A stretch of 64,000 nucleotides of DNA. It comes from Microcaldota archaeon. GTDB lineage: Archaea; Micrarchaeota; Micrarchaeia; Norongarragalinales; Norongarragalinaceae. Position 1 is the stretch's first letter; the number at the start of each line of letters is the position of its first letter. The stretch is from contig JACQQD010000011.1 in the NCBI GenBank assembly GCA_016207165.1, positions 70,515-134,514 on the forward strand, given 5' to 3'. Below are positions 17,322-29,318 of the stretch, piece by piece. The notes below the pieces were generated by a model. That model was not told where the DNA came from and made no database searches. It saw only the letters and a list, made by a program, of their open reading frames with translations. The position numbers and the translations under genes were made by a program.

Positions 17322-19538
17322 TCAGGAATGAACCGGCTTCACGTTTTTTAGCGGCGGCTTGTACAGCTTCATCAAGGCCGCGTTGGAAGTCACCGAAACG
17401 CTGGAAAGGGCCATGGCCAGGCCCGCGATGGCCGGATTCAAAAGAAAGCCGGTGAAGGGATAAAGAAGTCCGGCAGCCACGGGAATGCCGATCACGTTGT
17501 AACCGAAGGCCCAGAACAGGTTCTCCTTGATTTTCCGCATGGTAAAACGCGACAAGTCAATAGCGGTGACCACGTCGCGCACGTCGCTTTTAACCAGTAC
17601 GATGTCCCCGGTTTCAATGGCTACATCCGTTCCACCGCCCATGGCGATGCCCAAGTCCGCGGCGGCCAAAGCCGGCGAGTCGTTGATGCCGTCGCCTACC
17701 ATGGCCACGGTCCGGCCCTTTTTCTGGAGGGCCCGCACGTTTTTCTCCTTGTCCTTGGGCAACACTTCCGCCAGGACGTTGTCAATGCCGAGTTGACGGG
17801 CAATCGCGTTCGCGGTCCGGGAATTGTCGCCGGTAATCATGTACACATCCAAACCCATGCGCTGCAAGCGCTTGACGGCTTCCTTGGAACCGTCCTTGAG
17901 CGTGTCGGCCACCGCCAAAAGGCCGGCGAACCGCCCAGCCATCCAAACGGTGACTACGGTCTTGCCCTCGTTTTCCCACGCGTGCTTTTGTTTTTCGGCG
18001 GCGGCGGGCAGCTTTTTTCCCGCCAGGGATGCGGTGCCCACCGCGACTTTTTTTCCTTGAACCGACGCCGTGACGCCCTTTCCGGCCACGGCGTGGAACG
18101 CGGAGGCTTTCTTCAACGATATCTTTTGCTTCTTGGCGGCCTGGACGATGGCTTGAGCCAAAGGATGTTCGGAAAGCGATTCCACGGACGCCGCCTTCTC
18201 CAAGAGGATGCGCTCGGAAACACCTTTTTCAGTCCAAACGTCGGTTAACGCGGGCTCTCCCCGCGTCAGCGTGCCGGTCTTGTCAAACACGATGGCGTCC
18301 AGCCTCCGCGTTTCCTGGAGGGCTTTGGCCGTTTTGAACAGGATGCCGTTTTGCGCCCCAAGACCGGTTCCCACCATGATGGCGGTGGGCGTGGCCAAAC
18401 CCAACGCGCACGGGCACGCGATCAATAAAACGGCCATGAAGGCGGAAAGAGCGAACTCGAAGGGCTGTCCTGCGGCGAAAAACCAGTAACCAAACACCAG
18501 AAACGCGAACACCGACACCGCCGGAACGAACACGGAGCTGACTTTGTCCACGAGTTCCTGGATGGGGGCTTTTCGGCCTTGGGCTTCTTCAACCAACTTG
18601 ATGATTTGCGCCAACAGCGTCTCGCTTCCCACCTTGGTGGCCTTGCAGGTGAGGCTGCCCTGCTTGTTGATGCTGGCGCCAATGACGGAATCGCCTTTTT
18701 TCTTGTGAACAGGCATGCTCTCGCCGGTCACCATGCTTTCGTCCACCGCGCTGTCCCCGGAAAAAACGACGCCGTCCACGGGAATTTTTTCGCCGGGCCG
18801 AACTAGAAAGACGTCGCCGACTTTCAGCGACTCAATGGGCACCGTGACTTGGCGGCCGTTTTTGATCAGCGTGGCCGTCTTGGGCTGCAAACCCATGAGT
18901 TTCTTGATGGCTTCCGACGTCTTTCCCTTGGCGATGGCTTCCAACCATTTTCCCAAAACGATGAAAGTCAGTACGAACGTGCCGACTTCGTAGTACAAGT
19001 CGCCTTTGAAGCCCAGGGTAGTCATCAGGCTGTAGAGGTACGCCGCGCCTACGCCGATGGCCACCAGGCTGTCCATGGTCGGGGACTTGTTCAGGATGCC
19101 GCGGACTCCACGGATGAAGATGACGCGGTTGACCCACATGACGGGAGTCGCCAACGCGAACTGAATCCAGGCGGAATACGCTTCAAACCACTCCGGCAAT
19201 GGAAGAAAAATCCATTCCAAGTGCTCGAAAAAAAGGACCAAAAGCGGGATGCTTAACGCCAGGGAAAACAGGAAGCGGAAGCGGTACTCGGCCATCTCGC
19301 GTTCTTGGACTTGCTCGGAAGACTCGCTTTCAACCCACGGTTCGGCGTCGTAGCCCGCGTCCACCACGGCGTCGCGAAGGACGTCCAAGGCCACGGATTC
19401 CCCGTGTTGCACCACGGCTTTTTCGTTGGAAAGCGAAACTTCCGCGGTTTTGACCCCCGGAACCTTTTCAAGCGCCTTCTGCACCAGGTTCTGGCAGTGC
19501 GGGGAACTCATGCCAATGACGTGCAGTACGGTCTTCAC
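17322..19538 (-). CDS. copA: Copper-exporting P1B-type ATPase
   Basis: A 738-residue heavy-metal ATPase that exports Cu+ with ATP. All core motifs are present: the membrane metal site [12 protein letters not shown], the actuator loop VTGESMPV, the phosphorylation site [20 protein letters not shown], and the hinge [28 protein letters not shown] (quoted in parts). The single N-terminal metal-binding domain is degenerate: GMSSPHCQN replaces the usual GMxCxxC, so only one cysteine remains. The separate chaperone gene lies 12 bases upstream, forming an operon. The chaperone may therefore deliver copper directly to the membrane entry site. Confidence 0.96.
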
Positions 19539-19550
19539 GATTCAAACGCC

Positions 19551-19757
19551 TTAGGCCAGCTGGTAGCCGGAATTCTTGACGGCGTCACGCAACTGGGCCG
19601 CCCCCAGCGTCTTGGGGTCGTATTCGACGTCCATTTTGCCGGTCGCGTAATTGACCTGGCAATTCGACACGCCCGGCATTTTGGATACGTTTTTCTGGAT
19701 CGTGGCCGCACAGGACGCGCAATGCATGCCGCGCACGTCGAACTTGGTCTTGACCAT
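19551..19757 (-). CDS. copZ: Copper chaperone, HMA domain (CopZ-like)
   Basis: A 68-residue single heavy-metal-associated domain with an intact site GMHCASCAATIQKNV. It would carry Cu+ in the cytosol to CopA, encoded immediately downstream. Start ATG 19757 follows GAGGTG at 6 bases. A GTG nine bases upstream is in frame. TATA-like GCTATATTC at 19782-19790 would place the transcript start at or close to this ATG. Elements of the 19.78-19.89 kb regulatory region overlap that box. Confidence 0.93.
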   Translation of the reverse strand: MVKTKFDVRGMHCASCAATIQKNVSKMPGVSNCQVNYATGKMDVEYDPKTLGAAQLRDAVKNSGYQLA

Positions 19758-19782
19758 ACCATGCACCTCTTGAAACCGAATA

Positions 19783-19991: not shown

Positions 19992-20477
19992 CTAAACGGC
20001 CACGATCTTGCCGACGGCCATGCGCATGCTGCAGCCGTATTCCAAAGTCTGGCCTTTCTGCATGGAAGGCAAGTCAAACGCGACGGGCTGTCCTTTGGGC
20101 AGTGGCGCGGATTTGCCGAGGCTGTAAAACACGACGGAATTGGCGCACCCCGCCTCGTCCACGCGCGTCATGGTCAAGTGGATGGGTTTGCCGGATTGGA
20201 CCTGCAACACGTTGGGTTGGTACCGGAACGATTCAAGCCGGATTTCGGCGTCCTGCGCGTCCGGGGTGCCCCCGCCAACACCGGGAAGAAGTCCGGGTTG
20301 CGGGGCCGTGTTTTGGGCGCCGTTCAAGTAGAAGGCGTACGAAGCCGTCAACCCGACCAAAACCAAAAACGCCAATACTCCGAAGTACATGGCGTTGTCC
20401 GATTTGGCGGCCGGCGGTTGCGGCGGGCAGTCTTTGCAGGCCGCATCGTCTTGGGATTGCGAAGAAGAATCCGTCAT
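19992..20477 (-). CDS. Membrane-anchored cupredoxin-like protein
   Basis: A 161-residue protein with a cytosolic N-terminus carrying CKDC, one membrane helix (about residues 30-50), and an extracytoplasmic cupredoxin-type beta sandwich. The domain ends with LEYGCSMRMAVGKIVAV, matching the C-x-M-x-M ending of copper-resistance cupredoxins. A further conserved Cys lies in DEAGCANSVVF. It probably binds copper outside the cell. ATG 20477 was chosen; the frame stays open far upstream but would overlap the next gene. It is the last gene of a minus-strand set after the CcdA-like protein. Confidence 0.85.
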   Translation of the reverse strand: MTDSSSQSQDDAACKDCPPQPPAAKSDNAMYFGVLAFLVLVGLTASYAFYLNGAQNTAPQPGLLPGVGGGTPDAQDAEIRLESFRYQPNVLQVQSGKPIHLTMTRVDEAGCANSVVFYSLGKSAPLPKGQPVAFDLPSMQKGQTLEYGCSMRMAVGKIVAV

Positions 20478-20511
20478 GTGCGTTAATCCAATTCTTTTTT
20501 CGCGCCCATAT

Positions 20512-21273
20512 TTATGTGGCTTGCGGTAGGTACGGGAAAAGCAGGTACGCGGCGGCCAAAGCCAAAACCAGGCTTGACAAGCCTCGAAGGATGCGGATGA
20601 ACGACGGGGTATTCGGAAGGCTTTGGCGGGCTTCAAGAGCCAGGTACGTGGCCGCAAACATGGCCAGCGCGGAAACCAAGACGAAAAAGAAAAAGGCAGG
20701 GGCCACGGTTTGAACTCCGGTTGCCAAGGGAAACACGAACAACGCAAGCAGTACCGGCGTGGTGCAGAAGGCGCCGGTCAACCCGTAGAAAAAACCGATG
20801 GAGAAAAAACCTCGGGGACGCCCAGCTGGCATCAAACGCGGCGCCGGAAGATAGCGGGCCAGCGGCACGTCAAACCAAAGAAAGACGGCAAGCACCGCCA
20901 ACGCGAGGCCGGCTAAAATGCGGGTGTTGACCAGAAAACCGGCCAACGCCGAACCGAACAGCCAAAGCACGCCCAAGGCCAACGCATAAAACGCGGCAAG
21001 GCCAGTGGCCGCAAACGCCGCCAACGCCCAAAACGGCGCTTGGGGTTTTTGGGCGTTGAACACGAGGCTGACCATGGCGGGAAACGCGGCGAGGCTGCAT
21101 GGATTGAAAAACGCCACCAAACCCCCCAACGCGGCAAAAGCCATGAAAATCGCGGGAGGCATTTGCTCGGGCGCCAGGCCGCCGGCGGCGAAAGCGACGA
21201 GTTGGGGGGCGAGAAAAAGGCCGAGTGCAAGCACGACCGTCAAGGCGGCCACGTAGGCAACAAAGCGTGTCAT
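20512..21273 (-). CDS. ccdA: CcdA/DsbD-type membrane electron carrier
   Basis: A 253-residue protein with six or seven membrane helices and the two hallmark cysteines in equivalent helices: FFNPCSLAAFPAMVSL and YGLTGAFCTTPVLLALF. CcdA and the DsbD core move electrons from cytosolic thioredoxin to extracytoplasmic thiols. The start overlaps the stop of the PadR-TRASH gene. Downstream is the cupredoxin gene. A second CcdA-like protein is encoded at 26.2 kb, so the island has two. Confidence 0.88.
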   Translation of the reverse strand: MTRFVAYVAALTVVLALGLFLAPQLVAFAAGGLAPEQMPPAIFMAFAALGGLVAFFNPCSLAAFPAMVSLVFNAQKPQAPFWALAAFAATGLAAFYALALGVLWLFGSALAGFLVNTRILAGLALAVLAVFLWFDVPLARYLPAPRLMPAGRPRGFFSIGFFYGLTGAFCTTPVLLALFVFPLATGVQTVAPAFFFFVLVSALAMFAATYLALEARQSLPNTPSFIRILRGLSSLVLALAAAYLLFPYLPQAT

Positions 21274-21696: not shown

Positions 21697-22434
21697 CTAC
21701 TCGGCCAGCTTCCGCTTGGCCCGATTCAGGTGGACGTTCGTCTTCTGCACCCACGTAGCATAGGCATCGGCTTTGCGCTCCTCTTCTTGGGTCATGGCCG
21801 CCGGCGCGACGATGGGCTCGGGGTAAACGGATTGCAAAAGCCGCGTAATCGGCTTGAGGACGTAGGAGCCCTCCCGGATGTGGGCCAGTTCATGCAATAA
21901 GACGGCCTGCATCTGCCGCTCCGACAGCGTTTCAGACATGCCGACGGTGATGAATATGGCGGGCCTCAATCCGCCGGTGGAGTACGCCTCAGGCCTACCC
22001 GAATCCACGATGAAGACGTCGGGCGCCTTCCGCATTCCCAATTCCCCGGCGTGCCGATGGATGAAGCGTTGCCAGCGCCCGGCTTCCGGCTGCGCCCGCC
22101 AACGGTGAAGCATTGGAACCACCAGCAACCCGAAGGCCAAACCCAAAGCCAAGGTGATGGGAATGACGTAAAGCAGCGTCTGCGTCAGACCCACTTCGCA
22201 AAGTCCGGCCTGCTTGCAGGTCAGCGTGGTGGCAAAGAAGACCAACGGAAACAGCAACAACGCCACGTGAGCATGCATGAGAATCGAGCGTGTTCTCGCG
22301 GAAAATCCCAAGTAGCGGGATGACAAAATAAGCAAGACGGCGAAAGCCAGGCTTGCCGCTACCAGCGTGACGTTGGTGCCGTCCTGAAAGAACAGCGTCC
22401 CGGCATCAATGACGTGATCGGCCATACCCCACAT
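21697..22434 (-). CDS. M48/M56-type membrane metalloprotease (BlaR1-like sensor)
   Basis: A 245-residue protein with about four membrane helices in its first half and a zinc protease domain with HELAHI and the downstream EEERKADAYA (E-x-x-A-D), which give the three zinc ligands. Bacterial BlaR1/MecR1 sensors combine such a protease with a BlaI repressor; here a BlaI-type gene lies immediately upstream on the same strand. There is no penicillin-binding domain, so the signal must differ. TATATAAAG-like sequence (22456-22464) puts the transcript start almost on the ATG. A palindrome overlaps it. Confidence 0.88.
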   Translation of the reverse strand: MWGMADHVIDAGTLFFQDGTNVTLVAASLAFAVLLILSSRYLGFSARTRSILMHAHVALLLFPLVFFATTLTCKQAGLCEVGLTQTLLYVIPITLALGLAFGLLVVPMLHRWRAQPEAGRWQRFIHRHAGELGMRKAPDVFIVDSGRPEAYSTGGLRPAIFITVGMSETLSERQMQAVLLHELAHIREGSYVLKPITRLLQSVYPEPIVAPAAMTQEEERKADAYATWVQKTNVHLNRAKRKLAE

Positions 22435-22487: not shown

Positions 22488-22847
22488 TCATTTGTTCTTG
22501 CGGTACTTTTCGTCGAAATAGTTGATGGCCGAGTCCCCAAAACGCGCCACCAGGCGGTCCACGGCTTGTTGCACGATGCTTTTCTGGAATTGTTCCCTGG
22601 ATTGCAGGGGGCGGTAGATGTACGCCAAGCCGCCGCGGCCGGTGGTGATGCGGCGTGAGACCAGTTTGCGTGCATACAGCCGGTCCAGCGTCACCGCCAC
22701 GCTGGTCTGGGCGCACGGGTGGCGCTTCCTGATTCGGCCGTAAATCTCGCGTACTTTAGCCTCCCCCCCGGATTCCCAGAGCGTCTCAAGGATCTTGGAT
22801 TCCAAGGGGCTAAGCACATCCGATACGGCGTCGGCTTTCTTGACCAT
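22488..22847 (-). CDS. BlaI/MecI/CopY-family repressor
   Basis: A 119-residue winged-helix repressor of the BlaI family: LSPLESKILETLWESGGEAK, VREIYGRIRKRH, TSVAVTLDRLYARKLVSRR and GLAYIYRPL are the standard order, followed by the dimerisation helices (FQKSIVQQAVDRLVARFGD). It would be released from DNA by cleavage by the M56 protease encoded next. ATG 22847 is chosen because TATA-like GCATATATAG at 22869-22878 puts the transcript start there. A GTG 15 bases upstream is in frame but would lie before the transcript start. This regulator type is typical of bacteria. Confidence 0.9.
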   Translation of the reverse strand: MVKKADAVSDVLSPLESKILETLWESGGEAKVREIYGRIRKRHPCAQTSVAVTLDRLYARKLVSRRITTGRGGLAYIYRPLQSREQFQKSIVQQAVDRLVARFGDSAINYFDEKYRKNK

Positions 22848-22897
22848 ACCACGGATTGGCACACCAGGCTATATATGCATTTCTTTTACGCAAAGCA

Positions 22898-22970: not shown

Positions 22971-24092
22971 ATGAGTTTACGAAACACCCCCCTACACGCG
23001 CGCCAAAACCGGATGGAAAGCATCGCCCTCGTGCTTGCCGCCGCGACTCTGATGATAGCCTCTTTCTCACTTTGGCAATCCGTGGAGGCCGGCAACACCC
23101 TGGAATCCAGACTAGCCGTACCCACGCCCTTGCCGTTGCCCAAAATCAACGTCATCCAATTAGTCAACCCGGTATGCGCGGACTGCTGGAACGCAAAAAG
23201 CGTTATGCAAACGCTTCCTTCTCTCGCGTCCGTTGAGGCACGCCTCGTTGATTTCCAGACTCCGGAAGGCCAAGCGCTGATCCAGCAATTCAACGTCACG
23301 AAAGCGCCAACCGCGATTGTCACCGGCCAGATTGACGACGCCCGTTTGCGGCCCTTTCTTTCGCAAGGCTGGACCCGTCGCGGCGATGCCTACGTTTTCG
23401 TGGCCCAGGAACCCGTCTACTTCAACCCCCAGACGCTTGAAGTCACCGGCCGCGTTGAATTGACCCGCGTCGTTGAGCCCTCCTGCACATCGTGCGTCAA
23501 TTTGGCTCCCTTAACCGAACAACTCAAGCAGGCCGGAATCGCCATCGGTTCGGAACAAGAATTCAACGCCAGGTCACCAGAAGGCACAAGACTCATCCAA
23601 AGATACAATGCGACCACGTTGCCCTTGCTCATCCTTTCCAAAGACGCCCAAACCTACCCCCGCTTCCTGCAGGCCTGGCAGGACGTGGGTTCCGTCGAAC
23701 CGGATGGCGCACTGGTCTGGCGCCAGGCGACGCCGCCGTATTTGAACTTGACGTCCAACCAAACCGAGGGCATCGTGGACCTGACGGAATTGGTGGACGC
23801 CTCCTGCACGTCCTGCTACGACGTCAAGACCCACCAAGCCATCCTGGCCAATTTCGGAGTGGTCATCGGCAACGTCACGCGCTGGGACGTGAAAACCGTC
23901 CAAGGACGCGGGCTGATTGAAAAATACGACGTCAAGCAGGTGCCCACTGTGCTTCTGTCTCCGGATGCTGGACTGTACGACGCACTGACTTCAATCTGGA
24001 CGCAGGTCGGCAGCCAAGAGCCGGATGGCGCGTTCGTCTTCCGCAACATGGAGGCCCTTGGCAACGCGACCGCGGTCAACGTGACCCGGTGA
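22971..24092 (+). CDS. Membrane-anchored protein with three tandem thioredoxin-like domains
   Basis: A 373-residue protein with an N-terminal membrane anchor (about residues 17-38) and three tandem thioredoxin-like repeats outside the membrane. Each has a C-x-x-C after a hydrophobic strand: NPVCADCW (Cys 69/72), EPSCTSCV (172/175) and DASCTSCY (279/282), spaced by 103 and 107 residues. Each also has a matching cis-proline loop (TKAPTAIV, ATTLPLLIL, VKQVPTVLL) and a conserved GRxLIxxYx region. This would give six redox-active cysteines on one chain, suited to relaying electrons or holding metal. I know no named family with this architecture. It opens a long plus-strand operon. Confidence 0.88.
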   Translation: MSLRNTPLHARQNRMESIALVLAAATLMIASFSLWQSVEAGNTLESRLAVPTPLPLPKINVIQLVNPVCADCWNAKSVMQTLPSLASVEARLVDFQTPEGQALIQQFNVTKAPTAIVTGQIDDARLRPFLSQGWTRRGDAYVFVAQEPVYFNPQTLEVTGRVELTRVVEPSCTSCVNLAPLTEQLKQAGIAIGSEQEFNARSPEGTRLIQRYNATTLPLLILSKDAQTYPRFLQAWQDVGSVEPDGALVWRQATPPYLNLTSNQTEGIVDLTELVDASCTSCYDVKTHQAILANFGVVIGNVTRWDVKTVQGRGLIEKYDVKQVPTVLLSPDAGLYDALTSIWTQVGSQEPDGAFVFRNMEALGNATAVNVTR

Positions 24093-24168: not shown

Positions 24169-24960
24169 ATGAAAGAGAATGAACCGTCGCATCATCATGA
24201 TCCAACGCAACGCGCGCAGGAGTCTCATGGAAACGCGGAACGGACTCGTCCGCACTGGCTTTGGACCTTGTTCCTGCTCACCGCGTTTTCCGTGGCCATC
24301 ATGGCGTTCAACCAGCTTCAAATCGCGGACATTCAATACGGCATGGCCACGTATGCGGCCGCCGAGATAACGACAGGCTCCGGCACGCCCGTCGGCTCGT
24401 CTGGCGCATCGGACGGAATTTCCGCGGCCAACCTTCAGGCGTTGGCGGACCGCATCATTCCCCGCGGAATACCCGCCGTCTACGGCAATGAACTGGGCGT
24501 GTCGTACGACGACCCCGTCTCGGCCATGAAAGTCATGGCACCCATGGATGACGGCATCACGCTCTCGGCTGAACAAAACGCGCGGTACGTGAAAATAGCC
24601 TCGCCGATTTCCTGCGAGTACTGTTGCGGCGCCGAGTCCATCATTTTCCCCAACGGACAGGCGGCGTGCGGCTGCCAGCACTCGTACGCCATGCGGGGCC
24701 TGGCCAAGTATCTGATTACGAAGCACGGCACCCAGTACACGGATGAACAAGTCCTGGAGGAGTTGGGCAAGTGGAAGACGCTGTTCTTCCCCAAACAGAT
24801 TCTAACCAAGGCCCTGGCCTTTGAATCCGCTGGAAAGGACGTCAACACCATCGATTTGACGTCGAACAAGTACCGCGGGTTCACCGCGCAAAGTGCCGCG
24901 GCATCCGCTGGCCAAGCGCAGGGAGTCGCCGGCTTGCCGAACATGGTCGGCGGTTGTTGA
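24169..24960 (+). CDS. Membrane-anchored Cys-rich protein with C-terminal GLPNMVGGC tag
   Basis: A 263-residue protein. In order it has a His-rich cytosolic N-terminus (SHHHD), one membrane helix (about 29-47), a linker, a compact domain with ISCEYCCGAES and AACGCQHSYAMRGLAKYLI followed by YTDEQVLEELGKWKTLFFP, and an Ala/Ser/Gln-rich tail ending in AGLPNMVGGC. The five clustered cysteines (C-x2-CC and C-x-C) and a histidine look like a metal site. The last nine residues are identical in the next two membrane proteins. Function is unknown. GAGAGGTG precedes the ATG. Confidence 0.85.
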   Translation: MKENEPSHHHDPTQRAQESHGNAERTRPHWLWTLFLLTAFSVAIMAFNQLQIADIQYGMATYAAAEITTGSGTPVGSSGASDGISAANLQALADRIIPRGIPAVYGNELGVSYDDPVSAMKVMAPMDDGITLSAEQNARYVKIASPISCEYCCGAESIIFPNGQAACGCQHSYAMRGLAKYLITKHGTQYTDEQVLEELGKWKTLFFPKQILTKALAFESAGKDVNTIDLTSNKYRGFTAQSAAASAGQAQGVAGLPNMVGGC

Positions 24961-24980
24961 AAAGGGAGGACTGAAAGAAA

Positions 24981-25136
24981 ATGCAACGATGCAAGAAATG
25001 CCAAAAGCCGTACCTTTCGTGTTGCGGCGACACAAGCGAGTACTGTTTCGATTGCCAGCCGCGCGAGAAAGGGATGTGCGCCATTGACGCGCCAAAAAAA
25101 ACCGCAAAGATAAAGGGAGGTCATCGCCATGGATAA
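24981..25136 (+). CDS. Cys-rich 51-aa zinc-ribbon-like protein
   Basis: A 51-residue protein between two tagged membrane proteins. Cysteines are arranged C-x2-C (RCKKCQK), CC (LSCCGD), C-x2-C (YCFDCQP) and a final C, enough for two small metal sites. It lacks a signal peptide or membrane helix, so it is cytosolic. AGGGAGGACTG precedes the ATG. Its last codons overlap the start of the next gene (25129), so it is translationally coupled. The HRHG ending may add metal ligands. No family is recognised. Confidence 0.75.
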   Translation: MQRCKKCQKPYLSCCGDTSEYCFDCQPREKGMCAIDAPKKTAKIKGGHRHG

Positions 25137-25410
25137 GATCGTCATTCTATCGGCTCTCATGGGCCTGGTGCTGGTCGCCTCGGCGTTCCAGGCATTCGAG
25201 TTAAACGGCCTGAAAAACCAGTTGTACGCCAAGACCGGCGCCGTCGCGCTTTCTTCAGCCCCAGCGCAACTTGCTTCCGGCGGGGGCGAAACGTATGAAC
25301 AAATGATGCAACGCATGCACCCCGACCAGTTCGCACAACAACAGGCCGCCAGCGCGGCGGTGGGTGGAAACGCGCTCAACGGATTGCCGAACATGGTGGG
25401 AGGATGCTGA
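25129..25410 (+). CDS. Small membrane protein with C-terminal GLPNMVGGC tag (paralog 2)
   Basis: A 93-residue protein with an N-terminal membrane helix (ILSALMGLVLVASAFQAF), an ELNGLKNQL amphipathic stretch, a low-complexity Gln/Ala/Ser region, and the ending NALNGLPNMVGGC. Its first 35 residues align with the proteins at 24169 and 25415 (pattern L-x-x-L-x-x-F-x-x-x-E/Q-L-x-x-L), so the three are paralogs. The single cysteine is the last residue. GGGAGGTCATCGCC is a strong ribosome-binding site. Confidence 0.85.
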   Translation: MDKIVILSALMGLVLVASAFQAFELNGLKNQLYAKTGAVALSSAPAQLASGGGETYEQMMQRMHPDQFAQQQAASAAVGGNALNGLPNMVGGC

Positions 25411-25414
25411 AACC

Positions 25415-25618
25415 ATGGACCACATGTTGGCGTTGACGGCCTTGTTGGCATTGGTTTTGGTGGCCGCGGCATTCCAAAGCGTTGAACTGGCCGACCTAGA
25501 GTCCAGTTTGGAGAAAATCAAGCCGGCGGCCGCCCCGTCTGCACAGCCATTGGTCGCGGCGGCTCCGGCACAGTCCGGCGGCTTGAACGGCTTGCCGAAC
25601 ATGGTCGGCGGTTGTTGA
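25415..25618 (+). CDS. Small membrane protein with C-terminal GLPNMVGGC tag (paralog 3)
   Basis: A 67-residue protein with an N-terminal membrane helix (LALTALLALVLVAAAFQS), VELADLESSLEKI, an Ala/Pro/Ser-rich linker of about 25 residues, and GLNGLPNMVGGC. Architecture equals paralog 2 with a shorter linker. The DNA of the tag and the following bases is almost identical to the first paralog (GGCTTGCCGAACATGGTCGG...), whereas paralog 2 uses other codons. The only cysteine is terminal. The start lies four bases after the previous stop. Confidence 0.85.
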   Translation: MDHMLALTALLALVLVAAAFQSVELADLESSLEKIKPAAAPSAQPLVAAAPAQSGGLNGLPNMVGGC

Positions 25619-25641: not shown

Positions 25642-26250
25642 ATGACGAGTTACCCTTGGGTTTACATGGCGCTGGCGTTGCTGCTGGTGCCTCTGGCGAC
25701 AGCGGCCACGCCGCGCATGCTGGTGTACAAAAACGACGCCTGCAGCCACTGCGGGCCGTACCTCCAGCAACTGTTCGCCATGCTGGAGGAAAACGGGGTT
25801 GCGGCGGACCAAGTCGTGGTCCGCGACTATTTGAACAGCCCGAACGACCGCCGGGAAGTCGCCGAACTTCAAGCCCGCTTTGGCGTGCCGTTGGACATGC
25901 AAGGCCACATGGTGGCGGTCATGGATGGCGTTTACGTTCTGGAAGGACACGTGCCGCTTTCGGTGGTGCAAGGCTACTTGAACGCGCCCAAGCCCGACCA
26001 ACCGGTGGTGGTTTACCAGGACTCCATGCAGCCAAACGTCCAAACGTACGCCGTACTGTACGCAGGAAAACGCCAAATTTATGCCGTCAACGGCGAACCC
26101 GTAACCCCGCCGTCCGAGGATTACTCCAAGTACGTCATTCCAGCCATTCTCTTGGCCATGACCGGCCTGTTGGCGTTTCTCGGATTGAAGAAAAACCAGT
26201 CGTCCAACGGCCAAAACGGAGTGGAGATGAAGAGGAAAAAACATGGTTGA
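25642..26250 (+). CDS. Membrane redoxin with CSHC active site
   Basis: About 202 residues: signal peptide (YMALALLLVPLATAATP), a glutaredoxin/thioredoxin-like domain with LVYKNDACSHCGPYLQQL, a second part with PVVVYQDSMQPN, and a C-terminal membrane helix (about 165-185) with a basic tail. The CSHC motif would face outside. The neighbours (CcdA-like protein overlapping by 8 bases) suggest it receives electrons from CcdA. Start 25642 was chosen over 25633 for spacing from GGGAGG. Confidence 0.85.
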   Translation: MTSYPWVYMALALLLVPLATAATPRMLVYKNDACSHCGPYLQQLFAMLEENGVAADQVVVRDYLNSPNDRREVAELQARFGVPLDMQGHMVAVMDGVYVLEGHVPLSVVQGYLNAPKPDQPVVVYQDSMQPNVQTYAVLYAGKRQIYAVNGEPVTPPSEDYSKYVIPAILLAMTGLLAFLGLKKNQSSNGQNGVEMKRKKHG

Positions 26251-26920
26251 TTTCTGGCAATTGGCGGCGTTGGTGACGTCTTCCGGATTCCTGGACGGCA
26301 TCCACCCCTGCGGTTTCGCCGTGTTGCTGTTCTTCATCGCGTTCTTGCTTTCGCTCCAGCGCTCGCGAAGGCACATCCTGCTCATGGGCGGCGCCTACAT
26401 CGCCGGCGTCTTTTTCACGTACTTCTTGATCGGCCTGGGCATCTTCAAGGCCGTGTCGTTTTTCCCGGGCCACTTCTTCGCCATCGCCGGCTCGCTGTTG
26501 TTGGTCGTCATCGGACTCATCAGCATCCGCGACGGATTCACCGGAAAGGAAACATTGGCCATCCCTAAAATCAGCAAGCCGTGGATTAACGACGCCATCC
26601 AAAAAGCCACGTTGCCTGCCGCTTTCGTCGCCGGCCTGCTCGTCGGCCTCTGCGCGTTTCCCTGCGCCGGCGGCATTTACCTAGCCGTTCTGGGATTCTT
26701 GACCGTATCGACGACGTTCTGGGAAGGCGTGGGTTTTCTGGCATTGTACAACGTCTTCTTCGTCATGCCGCTGATTTTGACGCTTTTGTTCGCATCCAAC
26801 GAAAACGTCCTGAACCGGTTGGAAACGCTGGAGCAGGACAACCGAAAGAAGTTCAAGTTTGCCCTGGGCATCGCCGCCATCGCGTTGGCGTCATTCATCT
26901 TGTACTCGGTGTTGGCATGA
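26243..26920 (+). CDS. ccdA: CcdA/DsbD-type membrane electron carrier
   Basis: A 225-residue six-helix protein with paired cysteines in symmetric helices: FLDGIHPCGFAVLLFF and LLVGLCAFPCAGGIYLA. It belongs to the cytochrome c biogenesis protein CcdA/DsbD family and would carry electrons from cytosolic thioredoxin to the CSHC redoxin and possibly the tagged proteins. It overlaps both neighbours (ATGA at the downstream end), a tight operon. Its second motif has an extra cysteine compared with the copy at 20.5 kb. Confidence 0.93.
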   Translation: MVDFWQLAALVTSSGFLDGIHPCGFAVLLFFIAFLLSLQRSRRHILLMGGAYIAGVFFTYFLIGLGIFKAVSFFPGHFFAIAGSLLLVVIGLISIRDGFTGKETLAIPKISKPWINDAIQKATLPAAFVAGLLVGLCAFPCAGGIYLAVLGFLTVSTTFWEGVGFLALYNVFFVMPLILTLLFASNENVLNRLETLEQDNRKKFKFALGIAAIALASFILYSVLA

Positions 26921-27513
26921 AGAAGCGGAACCGTGCGGCCAAACGAAAGGACGGCCTGACGTCCTATTTGGAGCGCCACGACGTTCTGGCGGGGGTGCTG
27001 GCCGCCGCCGTGCTGCCAGCGTTTTACTTGGCCTTGTTGACCGGGCTCAATGGATTCGGCCACGCCCTGCTGCAAATCAGTTCGTTGGCTGGCTGGATGG
27101 CCCTTTTGTCCACGGGGTTGGGCCTCCAAGTGCAATTGTACTTCCGGTTGCGCCGGCTCCACCGCGAAGCCAACGCCCAAGGCGTCGCCGCCTCCGGCGG
27201 CGCGTCGGCATTTTCCATGGCGGCCTGCTGCGCACACCACGCCGCCGACGTGTTGCCCGCATTCGGATTGGCCGCCGCCGCTTCCTTTCTGTCCTACTAC
27301 CAAGACAGCTTCCTGCTCTTGGGCGTTTTGAGCAACATCGGCGGGCTTGGGTACATGCTGTCCTGCTACCAGGACTCGCGCCTGAAGACGGACGGTTTTC
27401 TGGATGCGGCACTGCGGTTTCCCTTGAAAGAGTGGCTGCCGTTTTACGTCGTGGCCGCGGCGGCGTTGTTCGTCGCACACGCGGCGTCGCTTTGGTTCAA
27501 ATCGATACATTGA
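26917..27513 (+). CDS. Membrane protein with CCAHH motif
   Basis: A 198-residue protein with about five membrane helices. The most distinctive segment is SMAACCAHHAADVLPAFGLA at a helix edge, followed by FLSYYQDSFLLLGVLSN and a second YQDS. Adjacent cysteines and histidines inside a membrane suggest a metal or quinone site. I recall similar proteins near copper or thiol genes but cannot name the family. It overlaps the CcdA-like gene by four bases. Confidence 0.8.
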   Translation: MKKRNRAAKRKDGLTSYLERHDVLAGVLAAAVLPAFYLALLTGLNGFGHALLQISSLAGWMALLSTGLGLQVQLYFRLRRLHREANAQGVAASGGASAFSMAACCAHHAADVLPAFGLAAAASFLSYYQDSFLLLGVLSNIGGLGYMLSCYQDSRLKTDGFLDAALRFPLKEWLPFYVVAAAALFVAHAASLWFKSIH

Positions 27514-27836: not shown

Positions 27837-28052
27837 ATGAACGCTTGGATAAAAAAAGGCGTGGACGGCCTTGCGAAGAATCACGGCTTGTTAATGGCGT
27901 TGTGCATTGGCCCGTGGATCGTCTTGGGCGCGGCCTACGCCTTGGGATTCCGCCATCCGCTGTTATGGCCGGCGGCCCTGGTGTTGTGCATTGGGTCCCA
28001 CGTGCTGATGATGGCGGCGCACTCCGACAAAGAAGGGAAAACCTGCCACTAG
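27837..28052 (+). CDS. Two-helix membrane protein, DUF2933-like
   Basis: A 71-residue protein with two membrane helices separated by a short turn (GFRHPLLWP) and a C-terminal CIGSHVLMMAAHSDKEGKTC followed by H. The pattern of two helices ending with cysteine and histidine-rich tail resembles DUF2933 proteins, which occur with copper and redox genes. The start is seven bases after the previous stop. Confidence 0.7.
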   Translation: MNAWIKKGVDGLAKNHGLLMALCIGPWIVLGAAYALGFRHPLLWPAALVLCIGSHVLMMAAHSDKEGKTCH

Positions 28053-28796: not shown

Positions 28797-29318
28797 ATGG
28801 CGTTGTTCTATTCGTACGTTGCGGCCTTCGGCTTCTCGCTAGCCATCATCCTTTTGTCCGCCGCCTATGCGTACAAGCATTACGCCAAGACCAGCGAAAT
28901 GTGTTGCATGATGGTGGGCATGGCGTATGGGACCGTCGCCGGCTTTGCCGCGGGAACGCTTTTGGTTTTGCCGACGGGCGACTACGTGCTGGGCATGATG
29001 GGCGGAACGGCGTTGGGCCTGTTGGTGGGCGTGCCCATGGGGCGTTGGGGCGGAGCGTTGGGAAGAATGGAGGGCGTCATGGCTGGGGTCATGGGCGGAC
29101 AAATGGGGGCCATGGTGGGCTTGATGGTTCGGCCCTTCGACGTGACATTGTTCATGGCGTACTATTTCGCGATGCTAGCGCTTTTGATGGGCGAAATGGC
29201 GTACGTCATGTACAAAAGCGCGAAAGTCAGTTTCCCAAAACGGGGAGCCGCCTTGTTTGCCCTCATCAGCCTCGTCGCGCTGGCACTGCCCTTTTTCTTG
29301 GACTTTTCCGTGTTCTGA
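28797..29318 (+). CDS. Glycine-rich polytopic membrane protein
   Basis: A 173-residue protein with about five membrane helices packed with Gly and Met. SEMCCMMVGMAYGTVAGF is distinctive, followed by GMMGGTALGLLVGVPMGR and MAGVMGGQMGAMVGLMVRPF. The methionine and CC content suggests copper contact (inference). TATA-like CCTATAAACC (28735-28744) lies about 55 bases upstream, so this gene starts its own transcript at the end of the island. No named family. Confidence 0.8.
   Translation: MALFYSYVAAFGFSLAIILLSAAYAYKHYAKTSEMCCMMVGMAYGTVAGFAAGTLLVLPTGDYVLGMMGGTALGLLVGVPMGRWGGALGRMEGVMAGVMGGQMGAMVGLMVRPFDVTLFMAYYFAMLALLMGEMAYVMYKSAKVSFPKRGAALFALISLVALALPFFLDFSVF

Follow-up and report, generated by a model that had tools for sequence, protein, structure and literature searches.

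Why would three adjacent membrane proteins of different lengths end in exactly the same nine residues, the last of which is a cysteine? The question arises from a 64,000-nucleotide stretch of an archaeal contig (Microcaldota archaeon, JACQQD010000011.1, positions 70,515 to 134,514; hereafter the window), in which three neighbouring open reading frames (ORFs) share the C-terminal nonapeptide GLPNMVGGC, here called the tag. We propose, with a confidence evenly balanced between right and wrong, that the core of the tag, [MQ]VGGC-COOH, serves for docking and exposes one thiol at its very end, akin to the C-terminal arms of ribonucleotide reductase (RNR) and MerA. The three proteins, named F0, F2a and F2b, and their tags lie in the window as follows.

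24169-24960, + strand: F0, 263 residues; transmembrane (TM) helix 29-68, domain about 85-235, linker and tag
24931-24957, + strand: tag GLPNMVGGC of F0, with the core MVGGC at 24943-24957
25129-25410, + strand: F2a, 93 residues; TM anchor, helix with a Met/His motif, and tag
25288-25329, + strand: Met/His motif ETYEQMMQRMHPDQ of F2a, in a predicted helix
25381-25407, + strand: tag GLPNMVGGC of F2a, with differing codons
25415-25618, + strand: F2b, 67 residues; TM anchor, linker and tag
25589-25615, + strand: tag GLPNMVGGC of F2b

The preliminary description of this DNA had reported the shared ending, the use of other codons in the middle copy and the terminal cysteine as the sole cysteine of the two smaller proteins, and all three points hold; the first and third copies of the tag are identical at the DNA level. 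It had also assigned a single N-terminal membrane helix to each protein, which is supported by the helices that AlphaFold predicts at residues 29-68 of F0 and 3-40 of F2a. The linker that it described as flexible is not so throughout in F2a, where a predicted helix with the Met/His motif ETYEQMMQRMHPDQ lies inside the linker. In the entire 1.27-Mb genome, the pattern MWNATGGTNGGNGGNTGYTRR occurs at the three window sites only, and its reversed control gave no match.

Thirteen of 59 relatives have an F0 homolog, and GTDB genomes gave 177 places with one, the best 80 of which were analysed as loci. These best 80 places are all in DPANN archaea, by their own label or by that of a neighbor (Micrarchaeota, Woesearchaeota, Aenigmatarchaeota, Pacearchaeota, Diapherotrites, Nanoarchaeota, and a few labeled "archaeon" only); F0 may extend beyond DPANN, since only the best 80 of the 177 places were viewed. 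Among the 10,925 ORFs in these loci (minimum length 45 residues), 157 end in MVGGC, and the 10 ends with one mismatch all read QVGGC, with no further single substitution; internally, a single MVGGC was encountered in 994,119 positions. Since the upstream GLPN varies among homologs, the core of the tag is [MQ]VGGC-COOH, a point overlooked in the preliminary description together with the tie to the F0 family, which may be the receptor, and the copper island discussed below. In nearly every locus the tag is borne by F0 and by small membrane proteins encoded next to it (F2, one to three per locus), and it is exactly C-terminal in all 178 distinct tagged ORFs. Some F0 proteins carry one residue beyond the cysteine. 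In G024 and G027, two genomes of one genus, F0 ends in QIGGCG or QIGGCS instead of [MQ]VGGC. Two F0 homologs with such ends (L030:10642-11424 and L031:9721-10527) have no F2 and lie next to two proteins whose families were recognized by eye, one CuA/COX2-like and the other a NosR/NapH-like ferredoxin protein.

Could the identical ends simply reflect a recent duplication or gene conversion, without function? The identical tag DNA of the first and third window copies would fit this explanation, but the tagged ORFs use every one of the four Val and four Gly codons, the 178 tags comprise 117 different 18-mers, 110 of the 117 tag pairs within one locus differ in codons, and M to Q is the only exchange; we therefore reject gene conversion as the source and give the explanation practically no credence. 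Codon diversity within loci and the single tolerated substitution support the earlier proposal that selection acts on the peptide, which is kept in homologs rather than varying freely. The choice between M and Q is set per genome: among loci with at least two tags, 69 have all M, 5 all Q and 1 is mixed. No F0 residue co-varied convincingly with this choice among the merely four Q sequences. We found no relevant literature on the tag or the system, papers containing the letters MVGGC having been judged by title and topic only.

The tag keeps company with F0. When 194 genomes of the phylum to which G344 belongs, a genome close to Pacearchaeota/Nanoarchaeota records, were surveyed by pattern alone, 55 of them proved to have the tag, almost always in close pairs, and the reversed control pattern matched once. 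An independent profile search of the same genomes found F0 in 58, namely, all 55 tag genomes plus three, one of them marginal. In the window's phylum (301 genomes), F0 is present in 15 of 15 genomes with clustered tags, and the isolated tag matches that were readable lie in implausible genes. No tagged gene set without F0 was found in the genomes surveyed (194 + 301), and this absence is the informative part of the co-occurrence. The tag has been lost from F0 in about nine loci, in most of which an adjacent F2 retains one, consistent with docking in trans. No F0 was found on plasmids or viral contigs.

What, then, is F0? In 77 homologs, C149, C152, C153, C167, C169, H171, R139 and K203 are invariant, among other residues, and the cysteines and the histidine form a CxxCC...CxCxH center (C149-H171). 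No Pfam or NCBIfam model matches F0 at cut-off, no fold match was found in the PDB, and the PDB gave no meaningful match by sequence. CcmH/NrfF and PCYCGC were considered as identities of the domain and rejected, with no match among the 77 members at E≤1 and no PDB fold match. In F2 proteins (n = 89, median 77 residues), a TM helix is followed by a stretch rich in Gly, Ser, Ala and Gln and then by the tag, and no Pfam or NCBIfam model recognizes them at its cut-off either; both families are undescribed in the libraries searched. None of the 89 F2 proteins has a second cysteine outside the membrane, such that the terminal one is the sole extramembrane thiol, and 37 of them contain a Met/His motif. 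In one locus (L032:9649-11010), F0 is fused behind a CPVC membrane domain that resembles a separate CPTC neighbor family, a hint of interaction.

AlphaFold predicts a confident domain at about residues 85-235 of F0, followed by a disordered linker with a predicted local distance difference test score (pLDDT) of 54. Beyond this linker, the pLDDT rises again to 85 (251-260) and 75 (261-263) in the tag, whereas the tag of the 93-residue F2 reaches 57 and 56 only, though it is equally conserved in the F2 alignment. On account of this difference, we suggest that the F0 tag may dock back onto the F0 domain, which makes F0 a candidate receptor of the tag. The strict sequence, the C-terminal position and the predicted placement on F0 would also fit a structural lock, in which the tag merely assembles the F0-F2 complex via a disulfide or a buried carboxylate and the thiol is not catalytic; we consider this improbable, given that CcdA and thioredoxin neighbors imply thiol turnover.

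A sister family, F13 (up to 450 residues), shares homology with the domain of F0 (hhalign probability 96%, E 2e-9), and the two form a superfamily with a common CC...CxH...wFP domain, the F13 motif reading CC...DCNHG..AALGL. Its members include L023:9092-10057, L025:13380-14378, L030:5804-7156, L031:14021-15379 and L236:5593-6543. Bacterial relatives, which have a twin-arginine-like N-terminus, occur on Burkholderia and Paraburkholderia plasmids near genes for P-type ATPase, CcdA, TlpA, DUF411 and SCO proteins. Most F13 proteins with a complete end have a cysteine near the C-terminus (ASCG, SCGV, ATSC, EASGC), and two genomes (L030, L031) carry three SCGV repeats there. A flexible C-terminal thiol tail may thus be an old trait of the superfamily, with [MQ]VGGC as its refined DPANN form.

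The window locus sits in a copper island, whose other features are listed below.

17322-19538, - strand: CopA-type Cu+ P-type ATPase (TIGR01511, 622 bits, cut-off 397)
19551-19766, - strand: CopZ-like HMA metallochaperone
19992-20747, - strand: cupredoxin-domain protein
21697-22434, - strand: M48/M56-like membrane metalloprotease, paired with the BlaI/CopY repressor
22488-22862, - strand: BlaI/CopY-family repressor (PF03965), divergent from the tag operon
22971-24092, + strand: F7, triple thioredoxin-like protein (CADC, CTSC, CTSC; PF00085, 26.3 bits, cut-off 23.5)
24981-25136, + strand: CxxC-rich (zinc-ribbon-like) ORF of 51 residues between F0 and F2a, also present in the relative L021
25633-26250, + strand: F1, redoxin-like membrane protein with CSHC, located where other loci have DUF411/CopG
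26243-26920, + strand: F4, CcdA-like membrane protein (HPCGF, FPCAG)
26917-27513, + strand: F8, CCAHH multi-TM protein, a recurrent neighbor
27837-28052, + strand: small protein ending in ..KTCH, a neighbor with a C-terminal Cys
28797-29318, + strand: Met/Gly-rich multi-TM protein that recurs in islands, sometimes fused to HMA

F4 has the two membrane cysteines beside prolines in a duplicated TM core that characterize CcdA/DsbD, and its PF02683 score (19.0 bits) is under the cut-off of 27.1. F1 scores below the DUF411/CopG cut-off (PF04214, 17.3 bits, cut-off 27) and has CSHC in place of CxCC. Further neighbors with a C-terminal Cys, ending in ..DCCKEW or ..ECCRNW, occur at L045:12121-12624 and L108:11110-11547.

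Two types of loci can be distinguished. Type I, to which the window belongs, has the order F0, one or two F2, a DUF411 or CGHC redoxin, and a CcdA-like or CPLC membrane protein; upstream lies either a divergent BlaI/M56 pair or a winged-helix regulator in the membrane. In the majority of type I loci, the tag genes have as neighbor a thioredoxin-like CGCC protein of the DUF411 family; the one tested scored 84 bits for PF04214. CcdA is not a universal partner, being present in 11 of the 47 long type I loci, and it and CPLC nearly exclude each other (CcdA only in 10, CPLC only in 32, both in 1, neither in 4). CPLC is a multi-TM family without annotation whose members conserve AHCPLC close to the N-terminus (L046:1613-2161 and 47 other loci); that it might be a remote CcdA was rejected (hhalign probability 1.3%). 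Type II, which accounts for most of 16 loci examined, has the order F0-II, F2, triple thioredoxin (14/16) and CcdA (13/16), the latter a true family member by PF02683 in the two tested (56 bits, E 4e-15). Of the 47 long type I loci, 31 have CopA no farther than 10 kb away; among the 16 type II loci, CopA is present in 3. Since type II loci keep thioredoxin and CcdA, mostly without CopA, the constant company of the tag is thiol-redox proteins, as the preliminary description had anticipated from the neighbors in the window, and the copper setting is frequent but not universal.

This distribution bears on a hand-over of Cu(I), in which the terminal thiolate and the C-terminal carboxylate, with Met/His motifs in some F2, would deliver copper to or from F0, DUF411/CopG and cupredoxins. 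The proximity of CopA in type I loci, the CopZ and cupredoxin genes of the window, the motifs in 37 of 89 F2 and the precedent of MerA (PMC4500099) speak for it; yet type II loci mostly do without CopA, and the tag Met is swapped for Gln in concert in whole genomes, which weakens metal coordination by this residue. We regard the hand-over as a doubtful alternative, though one to be taken seriously.

The absolute C-terminal position and the strict consensus might instead denote a signal for processing or attachment, by cleavage after GG, lipidation or conjugation, and a membrane metalloprotease does adjoin some loci. Such a signal seems quite improbable to us: among long type I loci, the metalloprotease is limited to 11 of 47, the two locus types share no recurrent enzyme that might make such a modification, and some F0 proteins extend one residue past the cysteine. 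Among three possibilities raised at the outset, an end exposed by processing at GG and attachment of a lipid or nucleotide are unsupported, with no E1-like, sortase-like or prenyltransferase gene recognized among the recurrent locus families and the metalloprotease of some loci as the remaining candidate processor; the third, a redox or metal-carrying arm, still fits best. The tag also lacks the layout of a sortase/CTERM-type sorting signal, in which a C-terminal TM helix and a basic tail come after the motif: here the tag forms the last residues and the TM helix is N-terminal.

Our current working hypothesis is therefore the docked thiol arm. It is favored because the tag is invariant but for M to Q and always C-terminal; because the M/Q choice agrees within genomes despite differing codons; because all 55 tag genomes, and 15 of 15 in the window's phylum, encode F0; because F2 proteins offer no other extramembrane thiol; because the operon pairs a thioredoxin-fold protein with CcdA or CPLC, in addition to copper genes; because F13, the homolog of F0, has C-terminal Cys tails near redox and copper genes; and because published analogues exist (PMC5704485, PMC4500099, PMC6696091). 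F0 and F2 would each be anchored by one N-terminal helix, with the tag on a flexible linker at what is probably the outer membrane face. The Cys-rich domain of F0 would receive its own tag in cis and F2 tags in trans. There, the docked thiol would meet the CxxCC...CxCxH center and either donate electrons or complete a metal site. It might be recharged by the thioredoxin-fold partner of the operon, a CGHC/DUF411 redoxin or the triple thioredoxin, to which cytosolic electrons would be brought by CcdA or, less certainly, by CPLC. The likely output of type I loci, including the window, would be extracytoplasmic copper sites held reduced or loaded. What was observed directly comprises the tag with its invariance, its co-occurrence with F0, the layout of the operons and their copper setting, and from these we infer the docking, the direction of electron flow and the substrate; the occurrence of tagged sets beside a Cys-rich F0 and thiol proteins suggests a dedicated "thiol arm" for extracellular copper or disulfides. 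More tentatively, and with somewhat less than even confidence, we envisage a modular system, not described before, in which the exact C-terminal pentapeptide is a portable thiol-carrier tag read by F0 as its dedicated receptor; through it, separate proteins tethered to the membrane would supply one Cys/His center with electrons or Cu(I), the unrelated CcdA and CPLC being interchangeable.

Several points weigh against the docked arm. The co-occurrence of the tag and F0 is partly built in, because F0 usually bears the tag itself, and the docking is read from pLDDT confidence values alone. A lone cysteine forms mixed disulfides only, where RNR and MerA have Cys pairs, and thiol chemistry alone does not explain the need for an exact C-terminal position. 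Finally, CPLC shares no homology with CcdA and conserves just two cysteines, which makes the supply of electrons uncertain for the majority of type I loci.

How does this system compare with those already described? In class I and monomeric class II RNRs, a flexible Cys tail reduced by thioredoxin or glutaredoxin enters the active site (PMC5704485), and in MerA, C-terminal cysteines deliver Hg(II) (PMC4500099). The tag cysteine is likewise predicted to sit on a flexible C-terminal tail (pLDDT of 54 in the F0 linker and 57 in the F2 tail). This tail might reach the Cys-rich domain, the tag having a raised pLDDT (85/75) in F0 only. RNR and MerA, in which we saw no homology to the tag proteins, differ in having a Cys pair, within one enzyme in RNR and in a cytosolic flavoprotein in MerA, whereas the tag offers a single terminal Cys, with another in 0 of 89 F2, and places it also on separate membrane-tethered proteins. 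CcdA exports reducing equivalents, and TlpA reduces the copper-site cysteines of ScoI and CoxB before metallation (PMC6696091, PMC9145763). CcdA, thioredoxin-fold and copper genes recur at tag loci in a similar manner, but no Sco or TlpA member was identified in the window operon, and that relay has no equivalent of F0, F2 or the tag. The relatives of CopG/DUF411 (PMC7558416) found at type I loci provide a further parallel, from which F1 departs by its CSHC and its score below the DUF411 cut-off. CutF, a small exported copper-related protein, also relies on a short C-terminal sequence that is essential to activate its partner (PMC8456105), but its motif is CXXXC, its end is rich in proline, and it showed no sequence relation. 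Against this background, the tag is near-invariant over several archaeal phyla and restricted to genomes with one unannotated domain, and it provides a clean handle on the management of extracellular copper and disulfides in DPANN archaea with reduced genomes, along with two newly named families, F0 and F2, and a candidate substitute for CcdA, CPLC. If our proposal is correct, the tagged proteins would add to the known C-terminal thiol arms one that works in trans.
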